Assembly (NCBI GenBank): GCA_011390465.1
Contig: JAABSH010000023.1
Coordinates: 1 to 53,412, forward strand
Reading direction: 5' to 3'
Source: Desulfobacteraceae bacterium
Lineage (GTDB): Bacteria > Desulfobacterota > Desulfobacteria > Desulfobacterales > Desulfosalsimonadaceae
DNA length: 53,412 bases
Part shown: positions 18,003-28,077 of the stretch, piece after piece
Numbering within the stretch: position 1 is the stretch's first letter
Layout of the letters: each line of letters opens with the position of its first letter
Notes under the pieces: model-generated
The model's input: the letters and a program-made list of their open reading frames with translations, nothing else
Told to the model about the DNA's origin: nothing
The model's database searches: none
Position numbers and translations under genes: made by a program

Positions 18003-21000
18003 TCACCGGGTACCTGCAATACTTTGCAAAATAAAAATCAGCTCCGGCATACCGATTTTTCCGTCATTATTGATGTCTAGTTCGGAGCCTGCCGGAATGG
18101 CCGGATTCACGCCTGCCATAAGCTGCAACACCAGAATCACATCTTTCAAATCCACTGTTCCGTCACCGTCAATATCAAAATTAGCAGACAAGAAAAAATC
18201 AACTCCCACAACATCCTGGTTGTTTATGAAGATTGTCTGAAAATTTGGTAAAAAGAGGGTTCCGCCAAAAAACGGCGTAATGGTGTAGGCACCATTGTCC
18301 AGGTTTTCAAAAACATAATCACCAGACCCATCCGTGGTGGTTTGCGCATGTTTATCACCGGACAAGGTAACGGTTACATCCGGCATATCTCCCACATTGC
18401 CTGTGATGACATAACAGCCCGTGCAGCAGATGACTTCGAGCTGATATTGACGTACCGTGGTTTCCGGCACGGGCGAGGCATCGGTGAGCTGGACGGCAAA
18501 ATCAAAAATGCCGCACAGGGCCGGTGTGCCGGAAATAACACCCGTGGCCGGATCAACGGCAAGGCCGTCCGGCAGGGTGCCCGAGGCAATGGCCCATTGA
18601 TACGGTGAGATACCGCCCGCGCCGGTAATGGCCGCCTGATACGGCGCTTTCTGCATGGCCGCCTGGATCTGGGGGGTCGCAATGGCAAGGTCATCAATTA
18701 CATACATGACCAGTTGTTTTTCTTTAGTGCTGTATGGATTGCCGGAATCGGTCACCCGCACGGTAAAGGTCACGCTTTCCGAGCCCACCATGCGGGTGGT
18801 GCCGGAGAGATGGCCGGTAGTGGAATTGAGTTTCAATCCCGGGGGCAAATTCCCGCTGATCAGGCTCCAGGTGTAGGGCGGTTCGCCGCCGGAAACCAGA
18901 ATATCCTCGGAATACGTCTCGCCCCGCACCGCACTTCGGATTTTTACAGTATCAATGGTCATTTCGCTATAAATGTTGACAATATAGGATTGCATGGCGG
19001 TTTTGACCGGAGTGCCCGAATCCGTGACTGCCAGGGTAAATTCATATGTCCCTGCCCCGGTGGGCATGCCCTCAATGGTGGCGGTGTTCGGACTGCCGTT
19101 TAATTCCAGGCCCGGCGGCAGGGTGCCGCTTTCCACACGCCAGGAATAGGGCGACGTGCCCAAAGCCGCCTGCACGGTATCCGTATACGCCTCATCCAGG
19201 CGGCCGTTTTTAAGGGATATGGTATAAACATAAAGTTCATCCAGCACCTCAATGGTATAGGTGCGAAGGTCGGTCTGGGCCGGGCTGTCCGCGTCACTCA
19301 CCTCCACGGTGAATTCATAAGACTGCCGGTTTTGCGGAGTTCCGGAAATGGTGCCGCTGCTTGAAAAATCCAACCCATCCGGCAATGTGCCGCTGGTCTT
19401 GCGCCAGGTATAAGGCTTGATGCCGCCTGCCGCTTCTAAAGTAACATTGTAAAATTCCCCTTTGGCCGCATCCGGGATAGCGCCCGTGAAGATGGATAGA
19501 ATATCCGACACATGCCAGAAAAAGTCTTTTTGCGCGGATACGCCGTTGGCATCGGTGGCCTGAATGGTGACCACAAAATCGCCTTTATCCGTGGGGGTGC
19601 CGGACAGCTCGCCGGTAGAAGGATTTAAACTGATGCCGGACGGCAGGTACCCGCTGATCACGGCCCATGCATAGGGAGAAGGTCCGCCGCCGGCTGACAA
19701 CACCACCGGGCTGATGGGGTCCCCTTTTCTGGCATTGGGCATGACCGCGGAAGTGGTGATGGTGAGCATGCTGGTGGTGCGAATCCCCAATGTGTTGTCA
19801 TCGGACTGATGATCATGCCAGGTGCTGTCTGTGACTGTAAAACTGACATTGGTATACCCGCCGATGGTGGGGATGCCGGATATGATGCCGGTGCTGGCAT
19901 TCAATGTCAGTCCGACCGGTAGCTGGCCGGTAAAAGAATAGGCATACGGACCAATCCCCCCGGAAATCCGGACCGCCTCGGAATATTCGCCATCCACCAG
20001 CCCGTTGGGCAGGTTGTTGGTTTCAATGGTCAGGGGATCGGCAATCTGAAGGGTCAGATCCTGATAATCAATCCGGTTTTCATCATCTGCCACGGAAAAT
20101 ACCAACGGCGCCAGGGTGGCTTTTTCCGGGGTGCCGGAAATTTTGCCGGTGGCGGTATCCAGGGATAAACCTTCCGGCAGCACCCCGGCATGAACTTTCC
20201 AGTGATGGTCTCCATACCCGCCGGAAGATTGCAGGGTATGACTGTATGCCGTGCCTGTAATCCCGTCGTTCAGGCGATTGGTGGTGATCCGGACCGGATC
20301 AACAATTTCAAGATCAAAGGTTTTTTCCGCTGCCCGGCCTGCATCGTCCGCCACCCGGACGGTAAATGAATAACTGCCGGTTGAAGACGGGGTGCCGGAA
20401 AGATTGCCGTTTGACAACAGTCTCACGCCGGGGGGTAGGGTGCCGGTGGATTTGGAAAATACATACGGCTGCTGGCCGCCGACAGCCGCCAGGCTTTTAA
20501 AATATTGAACGCCCCGGGTGCCCCGAACCAACGGGGAATCCGTGATGATGCCCAGTTTTTCCGTCACATCAATGGTAAATTCCCGTTCCGCATACGTGCC
20601 TTCACTGTCTTCCACGCTCACGGAAAACGTATAAGCGCCGGGAGATGTAGGCGTGCCGGAGATTTCACCGGTTGCCGGGTCTAACACCAAGCCCTCGGGC
20701 AGAACGGTATCCATGAACAGCGAAAACGTATACGGCAGCTCACCGCCTGTGGTATTGACCCGATCTTCATAGACAATATGCTTTACCCCCGGCATCAGGT
20801 TTTCCGAAAGAATATTCAGCGGGCCCGCAGGTGCCATGATCACGTTTATTCCCTCTGTTTCACCCGCTGACACCGATACACCGCTTCTCTCATGGCTGCT
20901 GTAATCGGTTTTACTGAATACAATATTATGGGGACCCGGTTCCATATGATTCAGACAAAAAAAGCCGGCGCTGTCTGTTTGCGCCGTCATGCCATTATCC

Positions 21001-22388
21001 GCTCTTACCCAAACGCCTTCCAGAGGTTCGTTTACGGAAAAATCAATGACCGTACCGGAGACCCGGCCCCAGTTATCGATGGTAAAAAGCCCCTGAACAG
21101 CTGCATTAGGCGGCAAGGTTGCAGATTCGATCCGAATGACACAATTATGAGATGGCGGTATCGACCGGTCCACCAACCAATCAAACTCTCCGTCGTTTTC
21201 GGTATTTTCGACAATCGGCTTAAAGGTGCCGTCTTTGCCGCCGTCCCCTGAAAAAAAGATGCTGACAGTGGGGGCAAAGGCATCGAGCGTCCATTTAATG
21301 GGCATTGTTTCCCTCCCCTTCCACACCGAGGCCTGCCCCGGGTTGTCAATCAGAAGATTCGCACCCTTCCGGTTCTGGCCGCCGCGAACAGCAAGAACAT
21401 GCATCTTACTTATGTCTTTAGAGCCCCACTGGCTGACATCCCCGGCCGAGGAATGAACATACCAGGCGTTTTCCGGCGAACCGGCAACCGTTGTGGAACT
21501 CCATAGTGCATCCTGCCACAACACGTCCTCAAAAAGCGGGTCAACCGCCGGCTTGTTTCGTTTGACATCGATGATGCTGGCCAGTTCAATGATACTGGGA
21601 AGTCGCCAGTCTTCATAATCCGCAGGCGAAAGGTCCTCGCAAAAACCAATGGCTGCCTCCCATAGGAGCATTTCTTCCTGAATTTCCTGATACCACATCA
21701 ACCCTGTGGCAACATCGGTTATGGTGCCATCCCCATTGTCAATAAAACGTATTCTGTTGTCGGAGACTTCTCCCCTTACAGCACGCGCCTTATACGTAAA
21801 GGTTTTTAAATTCATCCAATCATTTTCACCCGTCGTAAAATCCACGGCCCAGGCTCGTCCAGCGTAGTATTTATAGCTGTCTGACGACCAATACATATCA
21901 CTCAGAACTCTATCGAAATAAATAGTATTTACTGCCGGATCAGTTTCTCCGTAATCTGCAATCATCAACAACTCCAATGCCTTTGGCATCCGCCAGCTAC
22001 AGAAACTGCCAAAACATGACTCATTCAATTGCTGAATATATTTGTGGGTGTTCCAACTGCTCTCATCGGCACCCGGGTTTCCGCTATTCGTCTCTGGGTT
22101 AGGATCGTACCAGGCACAAGAATAATTATATGTTGTTTCCCAGGTCAAACCCGTCACATTATCACGGACCATGAACCATGATGTCGCGTCATCCGGAAGT
22201 AAATTGCCAAATTCGTCAATTTTCGTGTATGATTTTGGATTGATCAGATAATCCGAATCCTCACCAAATATATTTGTATAAGACTGTGTCTGCCCAGTAT
22301 CCGGCAAAGGTTGACCAGCCAAGGAGATCGCGGCGGTTAAAAAAATAATGAGAAAGAGGCCAATCAATGTTTTGCGTTTCATATCCAT
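18003..22388 (-). CDS. Giant secreted protein: two DUF1566 domains, putative-Ig repeats, dockerin
   Basis: This 1461-aa protein has a signal peptide (MKRKTLIGLFLIIFLTAAIS), a first DUF1566 domain (about 30-205, with WEAA-type and YWSSDSYKYYAGRAW motifs) and a second (about 210-345). A carboxypeptidase-regulatory-like domain follows (about 438-520), then roughly eight to nine He_PIG-like putative-Ig repeats (LPPGV...GNLSGTPSSTGSYSF). Next come CCTGCYVI near 1319, a CnaB-like domain and a C-terminal pair of dockerin-type calcium loops (DIDGDGTVDLKD, DINNDGKIGMPE). It is likely a surface adhesin or scaffold-associated protein. Its N-terminus and ribosome site (aaaggaattcatgg) are shared with the DGR target at 27481-28077. 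Its DUF1566 domains do not show the adenine-variant pattern. It begins 9 bases after the preceding gene. Confidence 0.85.
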   Translation of the reverse strand: MDMKRKTLIGLFLIIFLTAAISLAGQPLPDTGQTQSYTNIFGEDSDYLINPKSYTKIDEFGNLLPDDATSWFMVRDNVTGLTWETTYNYSCAWYDPNPETNSGNPGADESSWNTHKYIQQLNESCFGSFCSWRMPKALELLMIADYGETDPAVNTIYFDRVLSDMYWSSDSYKYYAGRAWAVDFTTGENDWMNLKTFTYKARAVRGEVSDNRIRFIDNGDGTITDVATGLMWYQEIQEEMLLWEAAIGFCEDLSPADYEDWRLPSIIELASIIDVKRNKPAVDPLFEDVLWQDALWSSTTVAGSPENAWYVHSSAGDVSQWGSKDISKMHVLAVRGGQNRKGANLLIDNPGQASVWKGRETMPIKWTLDAFAPTVSIFFSGDGGKDGTFKPIVENTENDGEFDWLVDRSIPPSHNCVIRIESATLPPNAAVQGLFTIDNWGRVSGTVIDFSVNEPLEGVWVRADNGMTAQTDSAGFFCLNHMEPGPHNIVFSKTDYSSHERSGVSVSAGETEGINVIMAPAGPLNILSENLMPGVKHIVYEDRVNTTGGELPYTFSLFMDTVLPEGLVLDPATGEISGTPTSPGAYTFSVSVEDSEGTYAEREFTIDVTEKLGIITDSPLVRGTRGVQYFKSLAAVGGQQPYVFSKSTGTLPPGVRLLSNGNLSGTPSSTGSYSFTVRVADDAGRAAEKTFDLEIVDPVRITTNRLNDGITGTAYSHTLQSSGGYGDHHWKVHAGVLPEGLSLDTATGKISGTPEKATLAPLVFSVADDENRIDYQDLTLQIADPLTIETNNLPNGLVDGEYSEAVRISGGIGPYAYSFTGQLPVGLTLNASTGIISGIPTIGGYTNVSFTVTDSTWHDHQSDDNTLGIRTTSMLTITTSAVMPNARKGDPISPVVLSAGGGPSPYAWAVISGYLPSGISLNPSTGELSGTPTDKGDFVVTIQATDANGVSAQKDFFWHVSDILSIFTGAIPDAAKGEFYNVTLEAAGGIKPYTWRKTSGTLPDGLDFSSSGTISGTPQNRQSYEFTVEVSDADSPAQTDLRTYTIEVLDELYVYTISLKNGRLDEAYTDTVQAALGTSPYSWRVESGTLPPGLELNGSPNTATIEGMPTGAGTYEFTLAVTDSGTPVKTAMQSYIVNIYSEMTIDTVKIRSAVRGETYSEDILVSGGEPPYTWSLISGNLPPGLKLNSTTGHLSGTTRMVGSESVTFTVRVTDSGNPYSTKEKQLVMYVIDDLAIATPQIQAAMQKAPYQAAITGAGGISPYQWAIASGTLPDGLAVDPATGVISGTPALCGIFDFAVQLTDASPVPETTVRQYQLEVICCTGCYVITGNVGDMPDVTVTLSGDKHAQTTTDGSGDYVFENLDNGAYTITPFFGGTLFLPNFQTIFINNQDVVGVDFFLSANFDIDGDGTVDLKDVILVLQLMAGVNPAIPAGSELDINNDGKIGMPELIFILQSIAGTR
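18355..20680. repeat. Copy A of a 2.3-kb coding direct repeat
   Basis: Most of the putative-Ig array of the gene at 18003-22388 is nearly identical, base for base, to about 23845-26165 in the next gene, offset about 5.49 kb. Long runs are exact, including third positions. This points to recent duplication or ongoing gene conversion. Boundaries are estimated by eye. Confidence 0.85.
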
Positions 22389-22397
22389 GAATTCCTT

Positions 22398-25300
22398 TTA
22401 TTGTTTTTCCGAGACCGTTTTTCCAATAAATAAAGCCTCTGCCATCCCGATTTTGCCATCGCCATCAATATCATATCCAGCCAAGTCCGGGGGTAAAATA
22501 CCGGACAAAATTTGCAGGGCCATAATCATATCCGTTAATTCCACCACGCTGTTTCGATCCAGGTCGCCGGGCAGGGCCGTGGTAAATTGCCAGGTCTGGC
22601 TTTGGGTTTCAGCGTTAAACATATCCCTTGCAGCAATGCGCCAGTAATAGGTCTGACCAAGGGTTAATGCACCCGGATCATATTCCAGGTCAATTACTCC
22701 CTCCGCTATCGTTGGCGGTGAAGATGCCGTGCCGAAAGACACATCATAGACCACTTCATCTTTGGGGTCCGGATCAGTGCAATCCCACGACAGCACGGTA
22801 TTTAAAGACACATTGGGTTGGCCATCTTCCGGAACGGGATTTTCCGGAGCGTCAGGGGGCTGATTTTCCTGCACAGTAAAATCAATATCGCCCGTATCCT
22901 GGTTTTCGATAACAACATCCAGGGTTTCCGGATCAATCCAATAGGCTTCTTTTTGGGGTTGTACGCGATACACGCCATTGGACAAGCCGGTAAACCGGTA
23001 TTTGCCGACGGCATTGGTGGTGGTTGTATGAACCGCATCCCCGCTGAGATTTACCGTGGCCCCGGAAAGGTCGCCAACAGTACCGGATATTTCGTAGCAC
23101 TGGGTACAGCAATTCACGGTTATGGTAAATTGTTTTTCCACGGTTTCCGAAACAGCGGCTGAATCATTAATCGCTATTGTAAAATTAAAAACACCGCATT
23201 TTGACGGCGCACCGGAAAGGGTTCCGGCACTTGAATCCAGGGTAAGACCCAACGGCAGGCTGCCTGCGGCAATGGCCCATTGATACGGCAAGACCCCGCC
23301 GGCCCCTGACAAATCAATGCTGTATTCCTGTTTTTGGTCGGCATCCGGCAATGTATCTGTTTCCATGCGCAAGGGATCGACAGTGGAAAACTGCCACAAC
23401 GGGCCTTGTGTTCGCTCTTCATGCGTATCAATACTGTCTACTTTCCAGAAGTAGGTTATGCCTTTGTTCAACGGTTCCGGTGTGTAGGCGTTTGCTTTAA
23501 GGCCTTCCGCTACTTTGGCGGGGTCCGGGGTGATGCCGAAATAAACATCATAGGTGATGCTGTCACGGGCATTGGGATCACCGCCGGTCCAGGATAAGGT
23601 CGGGGTCAATCCGACATCAGTGGCACCGGATGCGGGAACGGGATTTGACGATTTGGCCGGCGGCTGATTGGCCTCAACAGTGAATCCGTCAACCATTATA
23701 TCCTGGTTTTCAATGATCACCGCAAGATTTTCCGGCGACATCCAGAATCCGGTTATCTCCGGCTGAACCATATAACTGCCGTTTGAAAGTCCGCTAAAGG
23801 TGAATATGCCGTTTTCATCTGTGCTTGTGGAGGCGGCGGCATCACCGGACAAGGTAACGGTTACCCCGGCCATATCCCCCACATTGCCTGAGATGATATA
23901 ACAGCCCGTGCAGCAGATGACTTCGAGCTGATATTGTTGCACCGTGGTTTCCGGCACGGGCGAGGCATCGGTGAGCTGGACGGCAAAATCAAAAATGCCG
24001 CACAGGGCCGGTGTGCCGGAAATGACGCCCGTGGCCGGATCAATGGCAAGGCCGTCCGGCAGGGTGCCCGAGGCAATGGCCCATTGATACGGTGAAATAC
24101 CGCCTGCGCCGGTTATGGCCGCCTGATACGGCGCTTTCTGCATGGCCGCCTGGATCTGGGAGGTTTCAATGGCAAGGTCATCAATGACATACATGACCAG
24201 TTGTTTTTCTTTGGCGCTGTATGGATTGCCGGAATCGGTCACCCGCACGGTAAAGGTCACGCTTTCTGAGCCCACCATGCGGGTGGTGCCGGAGAGATGA
24301 CCGGTGGTGGAATTGAGTTTCAATCCCGGGGGCAAATTTCCGCTGACCAGACTCCAGGTGTAGGGCGGTTCACCGCCGGACACCAGAATATCCTCGGAAT
24401 AGGTCGCACCCCGCACCGCGCTTCGGATTTTTACGGTATCAATGGTCATTTCGCTGTAAATGTTGACAATATAAGATTGCATGGCGGTTTTCACCGGAGT
24501 GCCCGAATCCGTGACTGCCAGGGTAAATTCATATGTCCCTGCTCCGGTGGGCATGCCCTCGATGGTGGCGGTGTTCGGACTGCCGATTAACGTCAGGCCC
24601 GGCGGCAGGGTGCCGCTTTCCACACGCCAGGAATAGGGCGGGGTGCCCAGGGCCGCCTGCACGGTATCGGTATACGCCTCATCCAGGCGGCCGTTTTTCA
24701 GTGAAATGGTGTAAACATAAAGCTCATCCAGCACCTCAATGGTATAGGTGCGCTGATCGGTCTGGGCCGGGCTGTCCGCGTCACTCACTTCCACGGTGAA
24801 CTCGTAAGACTGACGGTTTTGCGGGGTTCCGGAAATGGTGCCGGCGTTGGAAAATTGCAGACCGTCGGGCAGGGTACCGCTGATCTTGCGCCAGGTATAG
24901 GGCCTGATGCCGCCTGCTGCTTCTAAAGTAACATTGTAAAATTCGCCTTTGGCCGCATCCGGGATAGCGCCAGTGGCGATGGTAAGAATATCCGACACAT
25001 GCCAGAAAAAGTCTTTTTGCGCGGATACGCCGTTGGCATCAGTGGCCTGAACGGTGACCACAAAATCGCCCTTGTCTGTTGGCGTTCCGGACAGTTCGCC
25101 GGTGGCGGGATGTAAAATGATGCCGGACGGCAAGTACCCGCTGATCACGGCCCATTTATAGGGCGAGGGGCCGCCGCCGGCGGACAACACCACCGGACTG
25201 ATGGGATCCCCTTTTCTGGCATTGGGCATGACCGCGGAAGTGGTAATTGTGAGCATGCTGGTGGTGCGAATGCCCAATGTGTTGTTATCAGACTGATGAT

Positions 25301-27278
25301 CCGGCCACGTGCTGTCCGTAACCGTAAAGCTGACATTGGTATACCCGCCAATGGTGGGGATGCCGGAAATGATGCCGGTATTGGCATTCAACGTCAGTCC
25401 GGCCGGAAGCTGGCCGGTGAATGAATAGGCATACGGGCCAATCCCTCCGGAAATCCGGACCGCTTCGGAATACTCGCCATCCACCAGCCCGTTGGGCAGG
25501 TTGTTGGTTTCAATGGTCAGAGGGTCAGCAACCTGAAGGGTCAGATCCTGATAATCAATCCGGTTTTCATCATCTGCCACGGAAAATACTAAGGGCGCCA
25601 GGGTGGCGTTGGTGGGAGTGCCGGTGATTTCGCCGGTCACAGTGTCAAGGGTCAGGCCGTCCGGCAGCACCCCGGCATGGACTTTCCAGTGATGGTCTCC
25701 AAACCCGCCGGACGATTGCAGGGTATGACTGTAGGCCGTGCCAGTAATCCCGTCTTTCAGGCGGCTGGTGCTGATTTGGACGGGATCAACGATTTCCAGG
25801 TCAAAGGTTTTTTCCGCTGTCCGGCCGGCATCATCCGCTACCCGGACGGTAAATGAATAACTGCCGGTTGAAGAGGGAGTGCCGGAAATATTGCCGTTTG
25901 CCCCCAGGTTCACGCCGGGAGGCAAAGTACCGCCGGATTTGGAAAATGCATACGGCTGCTGGCCGCCCACTGCGGCCAGGCTTTTAAAATATGGAACGCC
26001 CCGGGTGCCCCGAACCAAAGGAGAATCCGTTATGATGCCCAGTTTTTCCGTCACATCAATGGTAAATTCCCGTTCCGCATACGTGCCTTCACTGTCTTCC
26101 ACGCTCACGGAAAACGTATATGCTCCGGGAGAGGTGGGGATGCCGGAGATTTCTCCTGTGGACGGGTCGATGGACAGGCCGGGCGGGAGTGCGCCAAACG
26201 GGATGGCGAAGGTATAAGGATAAAAACCACCGGTGATTCGGATGAAGGTGGAAAATTCAACCGTGGTTTCTGCGGAGGGCAGGGAGGTCGTTGTAAAATT
26301 GAGTGGGCCGGGTGGAGTCATAAATACATTGAGTTCAGTGGTGTCTCCGGATTTGACTTCGACATTGGAAATAAAGATTTCCTGATATCCGGTTTTAGAA
26401 AAGGTAATATTGTATGTTCCGGGTGTTAAGCTCCCGAGTTGATACTTGCCCTGACTATCTGTTTGCGTATTTTCCCCACTGCCTGTTGTGACAGTGACAT
26501 TCGCTATAGGATTGCCAGTCTGATCCGTTACTTTACCGGTCACCCGGCCGGGAGGGATTCGAATTGTAAACAAACTCTGGACCGTGGATTTGTCCGGTTC
26601 ACTGAGCGGTTCAATTTTTAACGCACAGTTGATGGAATTGTAATCGGGTATGGTCCAATCATAGCTTCCTTCATTGGCCGTGTTGTTTGCAATCACTTCA
26701 AACGTGCCGGCTTTTCCTCCCTGGATGGACAGGGATATGCGCACATTGCCTGGAATACCCCGGGAATTCCAGGTAATTGTCTTCGATGTGCCGGGGGCCA
26801 ATTCTGCCCCCTGTTCAGGCCCCAAAATAATCAAATGATCCAATAATCGATTCTGTCCCCCGCGCACCGCACGCACGTAATAATCACTAGACTTATGGTT
26901 GCTGCCGCCGTAGCCGTGGGTGAAATACACGAGCCACGCATGGTCCGTATTGCTGGCATTGGTCGAGGACGACCAATAAGGGGACGATTTTGTATCAGGG
27001 AACATATTTGTGTCAATCGCCGGACTATATTTTCCATAGTCCACTATGGATCTTAGCTCCCGGATGTTTGGCAGGCGCCAGTCATCATAGCCGGCAAGGG
27101 ATAAACTTTCACAATGGGATATGGCATTTTCCCATGTCATTGAGCCGTCAGAGGCTTTCTGCCACATCAGGCCGGTGGTGATATCTGTTACCGTGCCGTC
27201 GCCATTGTCGACCAATTCAGCCCCGGCGACAGTGGGCAATAAAATAAAAATGATAATTAACGTCAGAATGTTACGCAT
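22398..27278 (-). CDS. Giant secreted DGR target: N-terminal variable DUF1566, putative-Ig repeats, dockerin
   Basis: This 1626-aa protein has a signal peptide (MRNILTLIIIFILLPTVAGA), then a DUF1566/C-type-lectin-like domain (about 22-143) whose last 42 residues are the variable region VR2 (26853-26979). Following parts are a beta-rich spacer (144-245) and a carboxypeptidase-regulatory-like domain (246-330). About nine He_PIG-like repeats come next, then CCTGCYII near 1121 with a CnaB-like domain, an Fn3-like domain (NQPPAKSSNPVPASG), another Ig repeat and CCTQCYEI near 1389. A second CnaB- and Fn3-like pair and dockerin-type loops (DLDRNSVVELTD, DIDGDGKIGMAE) close the protein. The variable domain would sit at the tip of a long stalk. 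The ribosome site (aaagga) lies in the avd remnant upstream. DGR variable regions are usually C-terminal, so this order is unusual. Confidence 0.87.
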   Translation of the reverse strand: MRNILTLIIIFILLPTVAGAELVDNGDGTVTDITTGLMWQKASDGSMTWENAISHCESLSLAGYDDWRLPNIRELRSIVDYGKYSPAIDTNMFPDTKSSPYWSSSTNASNTDHAWLVYFTHGYGGSNHKSSDYYVRAVRGGQNRLLDHLIILGPEQGAELAPGTSKTITWNSRGIPGNVRISLSIQGGKAGTFEVIANNTANEGSYDWTIPDYNSINCALKIEPLSEPDKSTVQSLFTIRIPPGRVTGKVTDQTGNPIANVTVTTGSGENTQTDSQGKYQLGSLTPGTYNITFSKTGYQEIFISNVEVKSGDTTELNVFMTPPGPLNFTTTSLPSAETTVEFSTFIRITGGFYPYTFAIPFGALPPGLSIDPSTGEISGIPTSPGAYTFSVSVEDSEGTYAEREFTIDVTEKLGIITDSPLVRGTRGVPYFKSLAAVGGQQPYAFSKSGGTLPPGVNLGANGNISGTPSSTGSYSFTVRVADDAGRTAEKTFDLEIVDPVQISTSRLKDGITGTAYSHTLQSSGGFGDHHWKVHAGVLPDGLTLDTVTGEITGTPTNATLAPLVFSVADDENRIDYQDLTLQVADPLTIETNNLPNGLVDGEYSEAVRISGGIGPYAYSFTGQLPAGLTLNANTGIISGIPTIGGYTNVSFTVTDSTWPDHQSDNNTLGIRTTSMLTITTSAVMPNARKGDPISPVVLSAGGGPSPYKWAVISGYLPSGIILHPATGELSGTPTDKGDFVVTVQATDANGVSAQKDFFWHVSDILTIATGAIPDAAKGEFYNVTLEAAGGIRPYTWRKISGTLPDGLQFSNAGTISGTPQNRQSYEFTVEVSDADSPAQTDQRTYTIEVLDELYVYTISLKNGRLDEAYTDTVQAALGTPPYSWRVESGTLPPGLTLIGSPNTATIEGMPTGAGTYEFTLAVTDSGTPVKTAMQSYIVNIYSEMTIDTVKIRSAVRGATYSEDILVSGGEPPYTWSLVSGNLPPGLKLNSTTGHLSGTTRMVGSESVTFTVRVTDSGNPYSAKEKQLVMYVIDDLAIETSQIQAAMQKAPYQAAITGAGGISPYQWAIASGTLPDGLAIDPATGVISGTPALCGIFDFAVQLTDASPVPETTVQQYQLEVICCTGCYIISGNVGDMAGVTVTLSGDAAASTSTDENGIFTFSGLSNGSYMVQPEITGFWMSPENLAVIIENQDIMVDGFTVEANQPPAKSSNPVPASGATDVGLTPTLSWTGGDPNARDSITYDVYFGITPDPAKVAEGLKANAYTPEPLNKGITYFWKVDSIDTHEERTQGPLWQFSTVDPLRMETDTLPDADQKQEYSIDLSGAGGVLPYQWAIAAGSLPLGLTLDSSAGTLSGAPSKCGVFNFTIAINDSAAVSETVEKQFTITVNCCTQCYEISGTVGDLSGATVNLSGDAVHTTTTNAVGKYRFTGLSNGVYRVQPQKEAYWIDPETLDVVIENQDTGDIDFTVQENQPPDAPENPVPEDGQPNVSLNTVLSWDCTDPDPKDEVVYDVSFGTASSPPTIAEGVIDLEYDPGALTLGQTYYWRIAARDMFNAETQSQTWQFTTALPGDLDRNSVVELTDMIMALQILSGILPPDLAGYDIDGDGKIGMAEALFIGKTVSEKQ
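23845..26165. repeat. Copy B of the 2.3-kb coding direct repeat
   Basis: Partner of 18355-20680. The two copies differ by scattered substitutions (for example DHDHQSDD-type versus PDHQSDN in the same repeat) and share the order of all Ig units. Confidence 0.85.
26853..26979 (-). other. DGR variable region VR2
   Basis: This 127-bp block aligns without gaps to 27484-27610. The coding-strand 5' end (from TTATTGGTCG, 19 bases) and 3' end (34 bases, ending in the GC-rich GTGCGTGCGGTGCGC) are identical. Between them are 17 substitutions in 14 codons, 16 at codon positions 1 or 2. Twelve have A in one copy; the other five fit independent changes from a shared template A. It encodes residues about 100-142: YWSSSTNASNTDHAWLVYF, then THGYGGSNHKSSDYY. 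Just upstream, homology between the two genes drops and third positions differ freely. Confidence 0.88.
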
Positions 27279-27281
27279 CTT

Positions 27282-27434
27282 TTAATCCTTTCGATAAATA
27301 TCCCGGGAAAGTTCCCGAAGATCCGAGCCAATACTGTATTTATCATACCGGCTGAACTGCCTGACCTGATTTTGAAGATACACCGCCAGGGCCATGGCGG
27401 TTTTATATATGGGCAAATGGTCGTATCGGGCCAT
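27282..27434 (-). pseudogene. avd: Avd (DGR accessory variability protein), N-terminal remnant
   Basis: A 50-aa frame from ATG 27434, with an agga ribosome site about 8 bases upstream, starts MARYDHLPIYKTAMALAVYL and continues with VRQFSRYDKYSIGSDLRELS. This is the highly typical beginning of Avd-like four-helix-bundle proteins (RYxxLPIYKxAxxLAxYL, FSRYxKYxxGxxLRxLSR). Full Avd proteins have about 110-125 residues, so only helix 1 and the start of helix 2 remain; similarity ends at about 27290 and a stop follows. Avd binds the retroelement reverse transcriptase and is needed for mutagenic homing. It lies directly downstream of the VR1 target, the standard DGR order, but where template repeat and reverse transcriptase are expected the 1626-aa gene begins instead. 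Confidence 0.78.
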
Positions 27435-27480
27435 TTTAAAATTCCTAAATAATCAAATCACCAAATGATCAAATCATACA

Positions 27481-28077
27481 TCACTGTCCCCCGCGCACCG
27501 CACGCACGTAATAATCATTCGACTTAAGGTAGGTGCCGCCGTCGCCGCTGCTGAAATACACGTGCCACGCAGAGCCCGTATAGTAGGCATAGGTCGAGGA
27601 CGACCAATAATGGGACAATTTTGTATATGGAAAATAGTCAATATTAATTGCCGGATTATAACGGCCATAATCCACAATGCCGGCCAGTTCCTTGAGGGTC
27701 GGCATCCGCCAGTCGGAAAAGCCGCCAAAGCGTTGTGCATTCAATTGAGCGATAAACACATCCTTTGCATCATACCAGTTATACTGATTATCCCTGTCAT
27801 GAATTGAGCCATCATCGGTTTTCACCTCCCAGATCAGGCCCGTAACATTGTCTCTGACCATAACCCATTTCGCGGCATCATTCGGCAGGTCATTGCCCTG
27901 GGCGTCGAGCTTGGTGTAGGACGGCGGATTGATGGTGTAATCCGCGTCTTCACCATGGGTATTGGTATAGGACCTGGTCTGCCCGGTGTCCGGCAAAGGT
28001 TGACCGGCCATGGTGGTCGCAACGGTTAAAAAAATAAAAAGTAAGATGCCAATCAATGTTTTGCGTTTCATACCCAT
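27481..28077 (-). CDS. DGR target protein with C-terminal variable DUF1566 domain
   Basis: This 198-aa protein has a signal peptide (MKRKTLIGILLFIFLTVATTMA, cleavage near AGQ) and one DUF1566 domain with VRDNVTGLIWEVKTDDGSIH, GFSDWRMPTLKELAGIVDYG and a C-terminal variable region ending YYVRAVRGGQ at the stop. Length, position of the variable region at the C-terminus and the avd frame 46 bases downstream match a classical DGR target gene. The first 80 residues and the ribosome site are closely related to those of the 1461-aa gene. It probably displays a diversified ligand-binding surface outside the cell or in the periplasm; the ligand is unknown. Confidence 0.85.
   Translation of the reverse strand: MGMKRKTLIGILLFIFLTVATTMAGQPLPDTGQTRSYTNTHGEDADYTINPPSYTKLDAQGNDLPNDAAKWVMVRDNVTGLIWEVKTDDGSIHDRDNQYNWYDAKDVFIAQLNAQRFGGFSDWRMPTLKELAGIVDYGRYNPAINIDYFPYTKLSHYWSSSTYAYYTGSAWHVYFSSGDGGTYLKSNDYYVRAVRGGQ
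27484..27610 (-). other. DGR variable region VR1
   Basis: Partner of VR2 (26853-26979), same length, no gaps. It encodes the last 42 residues: YWSSSTYAYYTGSAWHVYF, then SSGDGGTYLKSNDYY. Thirteen residues differ from VR2, at sites whose codons are consistent with AAC or AAT in a common template. Codon third positions are identical except one Ser codon (TCG versus TCT), itself explicable by a template TCA. The stop codon follows immediately after the block. Confidence 0.88.

Follow-up and report, generated by a model that had tools for sequence, protein, structure and literature searches.

Diversity-generating retroelements (DGRs) copy a template repeat (TR) with errors at adenines, and the product replaces a variable region (VR) in a target gene. 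A published account agrees with that description (PMC3240598). DUF1566 is named as the most common Pfam domain among DGR targets in a second source (PMC6642488). A third reports DGRs whose reverse transcriptases (RTs) are broken by nonsense mutation, frameshift or insertion, yet whose VR/TR pairs differ only at adenines, and also distal targets whose neighbouring RT is heavily mutated (PMC3521204). Here, we describe a locus on contig JAABSH010000023.1 of the Desulfobacteraceae bacterium assembly GCA_011390465.1 (positions 1 to 53,412 of the forward strand; the whole stretch of 53,412 nucleotides is hereafter the window), where two neighbouring genes carry a matched pair of VRs beside a stub of the accessory gene avd. 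This locus is probably what remains of a chromosomal two-target DGR, whose core of avd, TR and RT has recently been deleted, leaving both targets frozen.

Variable regions and template adenines

Both genes occupy the same places as the two target genes of a DGR in G005, a genome of the same genus:

22398..27278, minus strand: gene A, the large target, 1626 aa, Lcl_C followed by putative Ig (He_PIG) repeats according to Pfam; same place as the large Lcl_C gene of G005
27481..28077, minus strand: gene B, the small target, an Lcl_C protein of 198 aa according to Pfam; same place as the small Lcl_C gene of G005
26853..26979, minus strand: VR A, a 127-bp block inside gene A, whose differences from VR B sit on relatives' template adenines
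27484..27610, minus strand: VR B, at the 3′ end of gene B, where identity with VR A reaches the last codon before the stop

As the original prediction stated, the two blocks align on the minus strand without gaps over 127 bp; they are identical over the outermost 19 and 34 bases and carry 17 substitutions. Sixteen of these fall at codon position 1 or 2, in codons with the same final C or T, and the sole third-position difference lies at codon 130 (TCT/TCG). Adenine is present in one copy at 12 of the 17 differences and in neither at five. Third positions are nearly frozen inside the block: 1 of 41 codons differs there, and 36 of the 74 codons that could be aligned upstream do so (Fisher p = 5e-8). 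The upstream divergence between genes A and B is rich in silent change: codons for identical residues differ in 16 of 34 cases upstream and in 1 of 28 inside the block. All of these predicted features were recovered. The prediction had also placed both blocks in the C-terminal part of DUF1566, which we take to be another name for Lcl_C (PF07603); both do lie within Lcl_C domains (residues 28-139 of gene A, E 9e-39; residues 73-195 of gene B, E 7e-35), but only the block of gene B ends its protein, that of gene A being near the N-terminus.

The 17 differences were compared with TRs of relatives. A pattern search of the collected loci gave eleven distinct TR-like sequences. Nine match the window blocks in length and were used, while two (39 and 40 codons) were excluded because they needed gaps, and the test covers TRs fitting the strict pattern. 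Template adenine stands at 14-17 of the 17 differences across the nine TRs—at 17 in L098 (genome G118), 16 in six TRs, 15 in L091 and 14 in L124—with nominal Fisher p values of 8e-6 to 5e-10, uncorrected for picking the best. Codon 130 reads TCA in two of the nine (L098 and L189), so that the third-position difference TCT/TCG also fits a template adenine. Control pairs were scored against the first four TRs. Intact DGR pairs had template adenine at 11-14 of 14 (L094), 21-25 of 26 (L151), 16-21 of 21 (L134) and 15-20 of 23 (L091) differences, and at 14/14, 26/26, 21/21 and 20/23, respectively, when scored against their own TRs; a non-DGR tandem pair (L096) had it at only 2-4 of 15, and the pair from the core-less locus of G245 (L079) at 17-21 of 34.

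Searches with the gene B block in 98 genomes of relatives (15 matched, including the window's own genome, G000) and with an RT from contig C28 of G000 in 11 genomes of the genus (five matched) led to contig C256 of G005. Gene order there runs from a small Lcl_C gene with VR through avd, an AAC-rich TR and the RT to a large Lcl_C gene with VR; 80-82% of the TR/VR differences lie at TR adenines, and the Avd scores 50 bits for the Pfam family bAvd, whose cut-off is 40. The RT (L048 7857-8639) is damaged: its open reading frame (ORF) breaks off ahead of the YxDD motif, and past the motif just the tail is found again. This DGR may be dying as well. A syntenic DGR in G014, a genome of the same family, has an open RT ORF with SQ and YVDD motifs. 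The match to relatives' template adenines, together with these syntenic DGRs, strongly supports the predicted origin of the pattern by adenine-specific mutagenic retrohoming from a shared template: VR A and VR B are true DGR variable regions.

The core remnant, its genome and its setting

Between the stop of gene B and the start of gene A lie 202 bp, which contain the avd stub:

27282..27434, minus strand: avd stub, a 50-codon ORF with its stop, of which the first 48 codons are homologous to G005 Avd (65% identity; E 1.7e-17 in tblastn)
27279..27297, no strand: inferred deletion junction, between the end of avd homology and the leader of gene A, from DNA alignment with the avd genes of L098, L048 and L096

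Homology to avd at the DNA level stops at about 27297, and gene A begins at 27278. Relatives carry the remainder of avd, a TR and an RT at the corresponding place; the window has none of these there. As the breakpoint is not within the TR/VR repeats, repeat collapse during assembly should not explain it. Synteny with an intact DGR and a leftover core gene mark the locus as a remnant of an Lcl_C/bAvd DGR; of the attributes of a working system it has VR differences on template adenines, while no TR of its own, associated RT or full Avd was found in the draft assembly.

Genome G000 (3.93 Mb in 119 contigs, listed as 100% complete) shows no third copy of the block, a DNA search with one block returning only the VR pair. 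A relative's TR likewise found the VR pair in this genome and then only a 28-base match at E 0.065. The constant 19-base end, proposed as a probe for the template, occurs only at the two VRs, with up to three mismatches allowed in the window and up to two in the genome, and the 19-mer had 0 matches in viral contigs. For avd, the stub in the window is the only match in the genome. RVT_1 matches at E <= 0.001 were confined to two identical copies on C28, 35-41% identical, in pieces, to the RT of G014; no RT was found in the window region, nor any RT of the Lcl_C/avd-DGR family in the genome. The expectation of a present working template is therefore not supported, no third repeat copy and only a stub of the avd-TR-RT core having been found, and that of a DGR-type RT in the genome was borne out only elsewhere, on C28, beside another TR with FGE-sulfatase targets. 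A genome-wide search without a template repeat was an outcome that the original prediction had named as refuting it. In our view, this outcome counts against present activity at the locus and does not count against the way in which the pattern is proposed to have arisen.

The C28 DGR has FGE-sulfatase genes as its targets. Its RT, an intact ORF that carries SQ and YMDD motifs, is preceded by an HRDC-domain protein and directly followed by the TR. Adenines of its TR account for 19/20 differences in one VR and 20/22 in another, and for only 23/53 in a fourth repeat copy. As a related system it is comparable in its RT motifs and in VR differences biased to TR adenines, and is unlike the window locus in its FGE-sulfatase targets, its different template and the HRDC-domain protein beside its RT. 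The complete system lies at C28:12773-22593 (L007, L008), and this 9,821-bp block, VR included, is perfectly repeated at +16590; either it was duplicated very recently or the second copy is an artefact of assembly.

In an intact Lcl_C system, an AAC/AAT-rich template would be reverse-transcribed by the DGR RT with the help of Avd and with errors at adenines, and the product would replace the corresponding segment of each flanking Lcl_C gene, so that a predicted binding surface comes in many variants. Both VRs in the window would have been written from one template before the core was lost. The deletion would then have removed the TR and RT together with the 3′ part of avd, so that codon ~47 of avd now abuts the gene A leader, and both target genes would have survived with their last-written variants. 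The adenine signature, the synteny with intact DGRs, the avd stub and the failure to find a TR or RT of this family in the genome are direct observations; a deletion as the cause, its recent date, the present freezing of the VRs and a binding role for the targets are inferences.

Neighbouring genes include homologues of EF-G, DXP synthase and polyprenyl synthetase, and the location therefore points to the chromosome rather than to a prophage. The proteins of genes A and B appear, by eye, to be secreted. An AlphaFold model of gene B, built on an alignment of 26 sequences, was poor (mean predicted local distance difference test score 56); Foldseek comparison of this model with the PDB gave no match at E <= 0.001, and a PDB sequence search gave none at 0.01. 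A C-type-lectin-like fold is predicted for the targets from the Lcl_C Pfam match and from PMC6642488. Adjoining gene A is a paralogue of 1461 aa (window 18003-22388, minus strand) with two Lcl_C domains and He_PIG repeats, whose Lcl_C ends look unlike the VR pair by eye. None of the other Lcl_C domains of the genome (on C50, C75, C46 and C29 and at window 21384-22172) was flagged by the VR-pattern search, the proteins having been inspected by eye.

Age of the pair and alternative explanations

Third-position shares were compared among equal-length VR pairs passing the strict pattern, leaving uncounted L121 and L127 (repeats of L094 and L096) and L126 (a VR against a probable TR). Third positions account for 0/14, 1/21, 1/26 and 2/23 differences in intact systems and for 1/17 in the window, compared with 6/26 in L050, 12/34 in the core-less G245 pair and 11/15 in the non-DGR pair L096. 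Because the window pair resembles that of a live system, the loss was probably recent, or activity in trans is ongoing; we estimate that some 40 codons exclude only silent change above a few percent.

Several observations weigh against a recently deleted core. A pair as fresh as that of a live system is also expected under continued activity in trans; the absence of a TR rests on a draft assembly of 119 contigs, where a gap could hide one; another DGR RT, that of C28, exists in the cell; and the avd stub, searched by itself, has no Pfam match at E <= 0.1. In L050, where two Lcl_C domains lie in tandem and no avd was seen, 19-21 of 26 differences are on template-adenine positions, so that positional enrichment is by itself insufficient as proof; either L050 is an old VR pair, or it is evidence that position alone is no proof. 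Diversification in trans is the main rival, although we consider it unlikely: a TR, served by its own RT or by that of C28, would be in the cell but missing from the assembly or on another replicon. Besides the freshness of the VR pair, this idea draws on the intact C28 RT with its SQ and YMDD motifs, on G165, where RT-less copies sit next to an intact copy, and on the distal targets next to a decayed RT described in PMC3521204; yet no TR and no other avd were found in a genome listed as 100% complete, and the C28 TR serves FGE-sulfatase genes and went unmatched in the block search.

An assembly error, with the core present in the organism and dropped from the contig, is very improbable: the genome is a draft, and the perfect 9,821-bp repeat on C28 is perhaps an artefact, but the join in the window lies in unique sequence outside repeats, the core was found on no other contig, and a partial avd followed by an Lcl_C gene was also read in other genomes. 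We give next to no credence to an origin without any DGR, in which ordinary paralogues diverged in their loops by selection while gene conversion kept their ends alike. Lcl_C loops are generally variable, and L050, though perhaps an old VR pair, scores highly with no avd seen; against this stand the fall in silent change from 16/34 upstream to 1/28 in the block, the 17/17 match to the best TR, the avd stub, the syntenic DGRs, and the non-DGR pair L096, with most of its changes at position 3 and few on template adenines. The silent sites and template adenines led us to reject gene conversion and selection alone. Recent deletion of the core thus remains our preferred account of the locus.

RT-less relatives and comparison with known DGRs

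An avd search of 291 relatives matched 22 genomes, including G000, with truncated genes in some. Lcl_C genes flanking a partial avd without an RT were found in G049, G121 and G245 and at L163 (avd to codon 82). L144 (2970-4388) retains Lcl_C, avd and an adenine-matched TR, and its next Lcl_C gene follows without an intervening RT. L194 has an Lcl_C gene followed by 78 avd codons and shows neither an RT nor another Lcl_C match. At E <= 1e-10, no RT of the Lcl_C/avd-DGR family was found in 7 of 11 genomes (G049, G121, G245, those of L144, L163 and L194, and G016), some of the seven being small or of unknown completeness; six of the seven carry avd loci, and the seventh, G016, has no avd match. 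G165 combines an intact copy with RT-less copies, and G182 holds RT pieces; G294 gives the same matches as G182 and so looks like the same genome. In G016, a genome of the same family, where no avd or RT of this DGR family was found, tandem Lcl_C domains on C170 (L052, 2860-2939 and 3268-3347) share an 83% identical stretch resembling a VR pair.

In a contig collection, the best 80 of 164 avd relatives were kept, of which 67 have at least 2.5 kb after avd. Among these best 80 of 164, 15 of the 67 loci have no RT within 4 kb, with an Lcl_C match near eight of the 15; as the test uses four RT queries, distant RTs may escape detection. In L171, one of the 15, an RT lies on the opposite strand, and L120 and L122 come from one metagenome-assembled genome. 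The avd remnants end at differing points, which suggests that the losses may have been independent.

It is conceivable, if rather doubtful, that deletion of the mutator core with both receptors kept is a recurrent, selected end state that locks in useful binding variants and leaves datable scars missed by RT-based searches. To our knowledge, DGR surveys start from the RT, so that targets without one go unseen. Comparison of two VRs with each other and with a relative's template may suffice to recognise a dead DGR and roughly rank its age. Whether DGRs are passing episodes, removed once good variants have arisen, or are lost at random thereby becomes a testable question, with the RT-less relatives as a starting set.

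The window locus resembles the bAvd/Lcl_C (DUF1566) DGRs L117, L119, L121 and L151 in its Lcl_C targets, its avd, the gene order around avd and its adenine-specific VR differences; unlike them, it has neither TR nor RT and keeps only 48 avd codons. Literature searches, covering open-licence papers only, turned up no DGR of which just two VRs and an avd stub are left. What is new here is the joint loss of TR and RT, its recurrence and the gradient of ageing; the parts, and inactivated DGRs as such, were already known. Like the recently inactivated DGRs in PMC3521204, the locus has a broken mutator and variable repeats with adenine-only changes; unlike those cases, as described there, in which the VR/TR repeats are kept and the RT is broken, it has lost both TR and RT, and its diagnosis comes from comparing VR with VR and with the templates of relatives.

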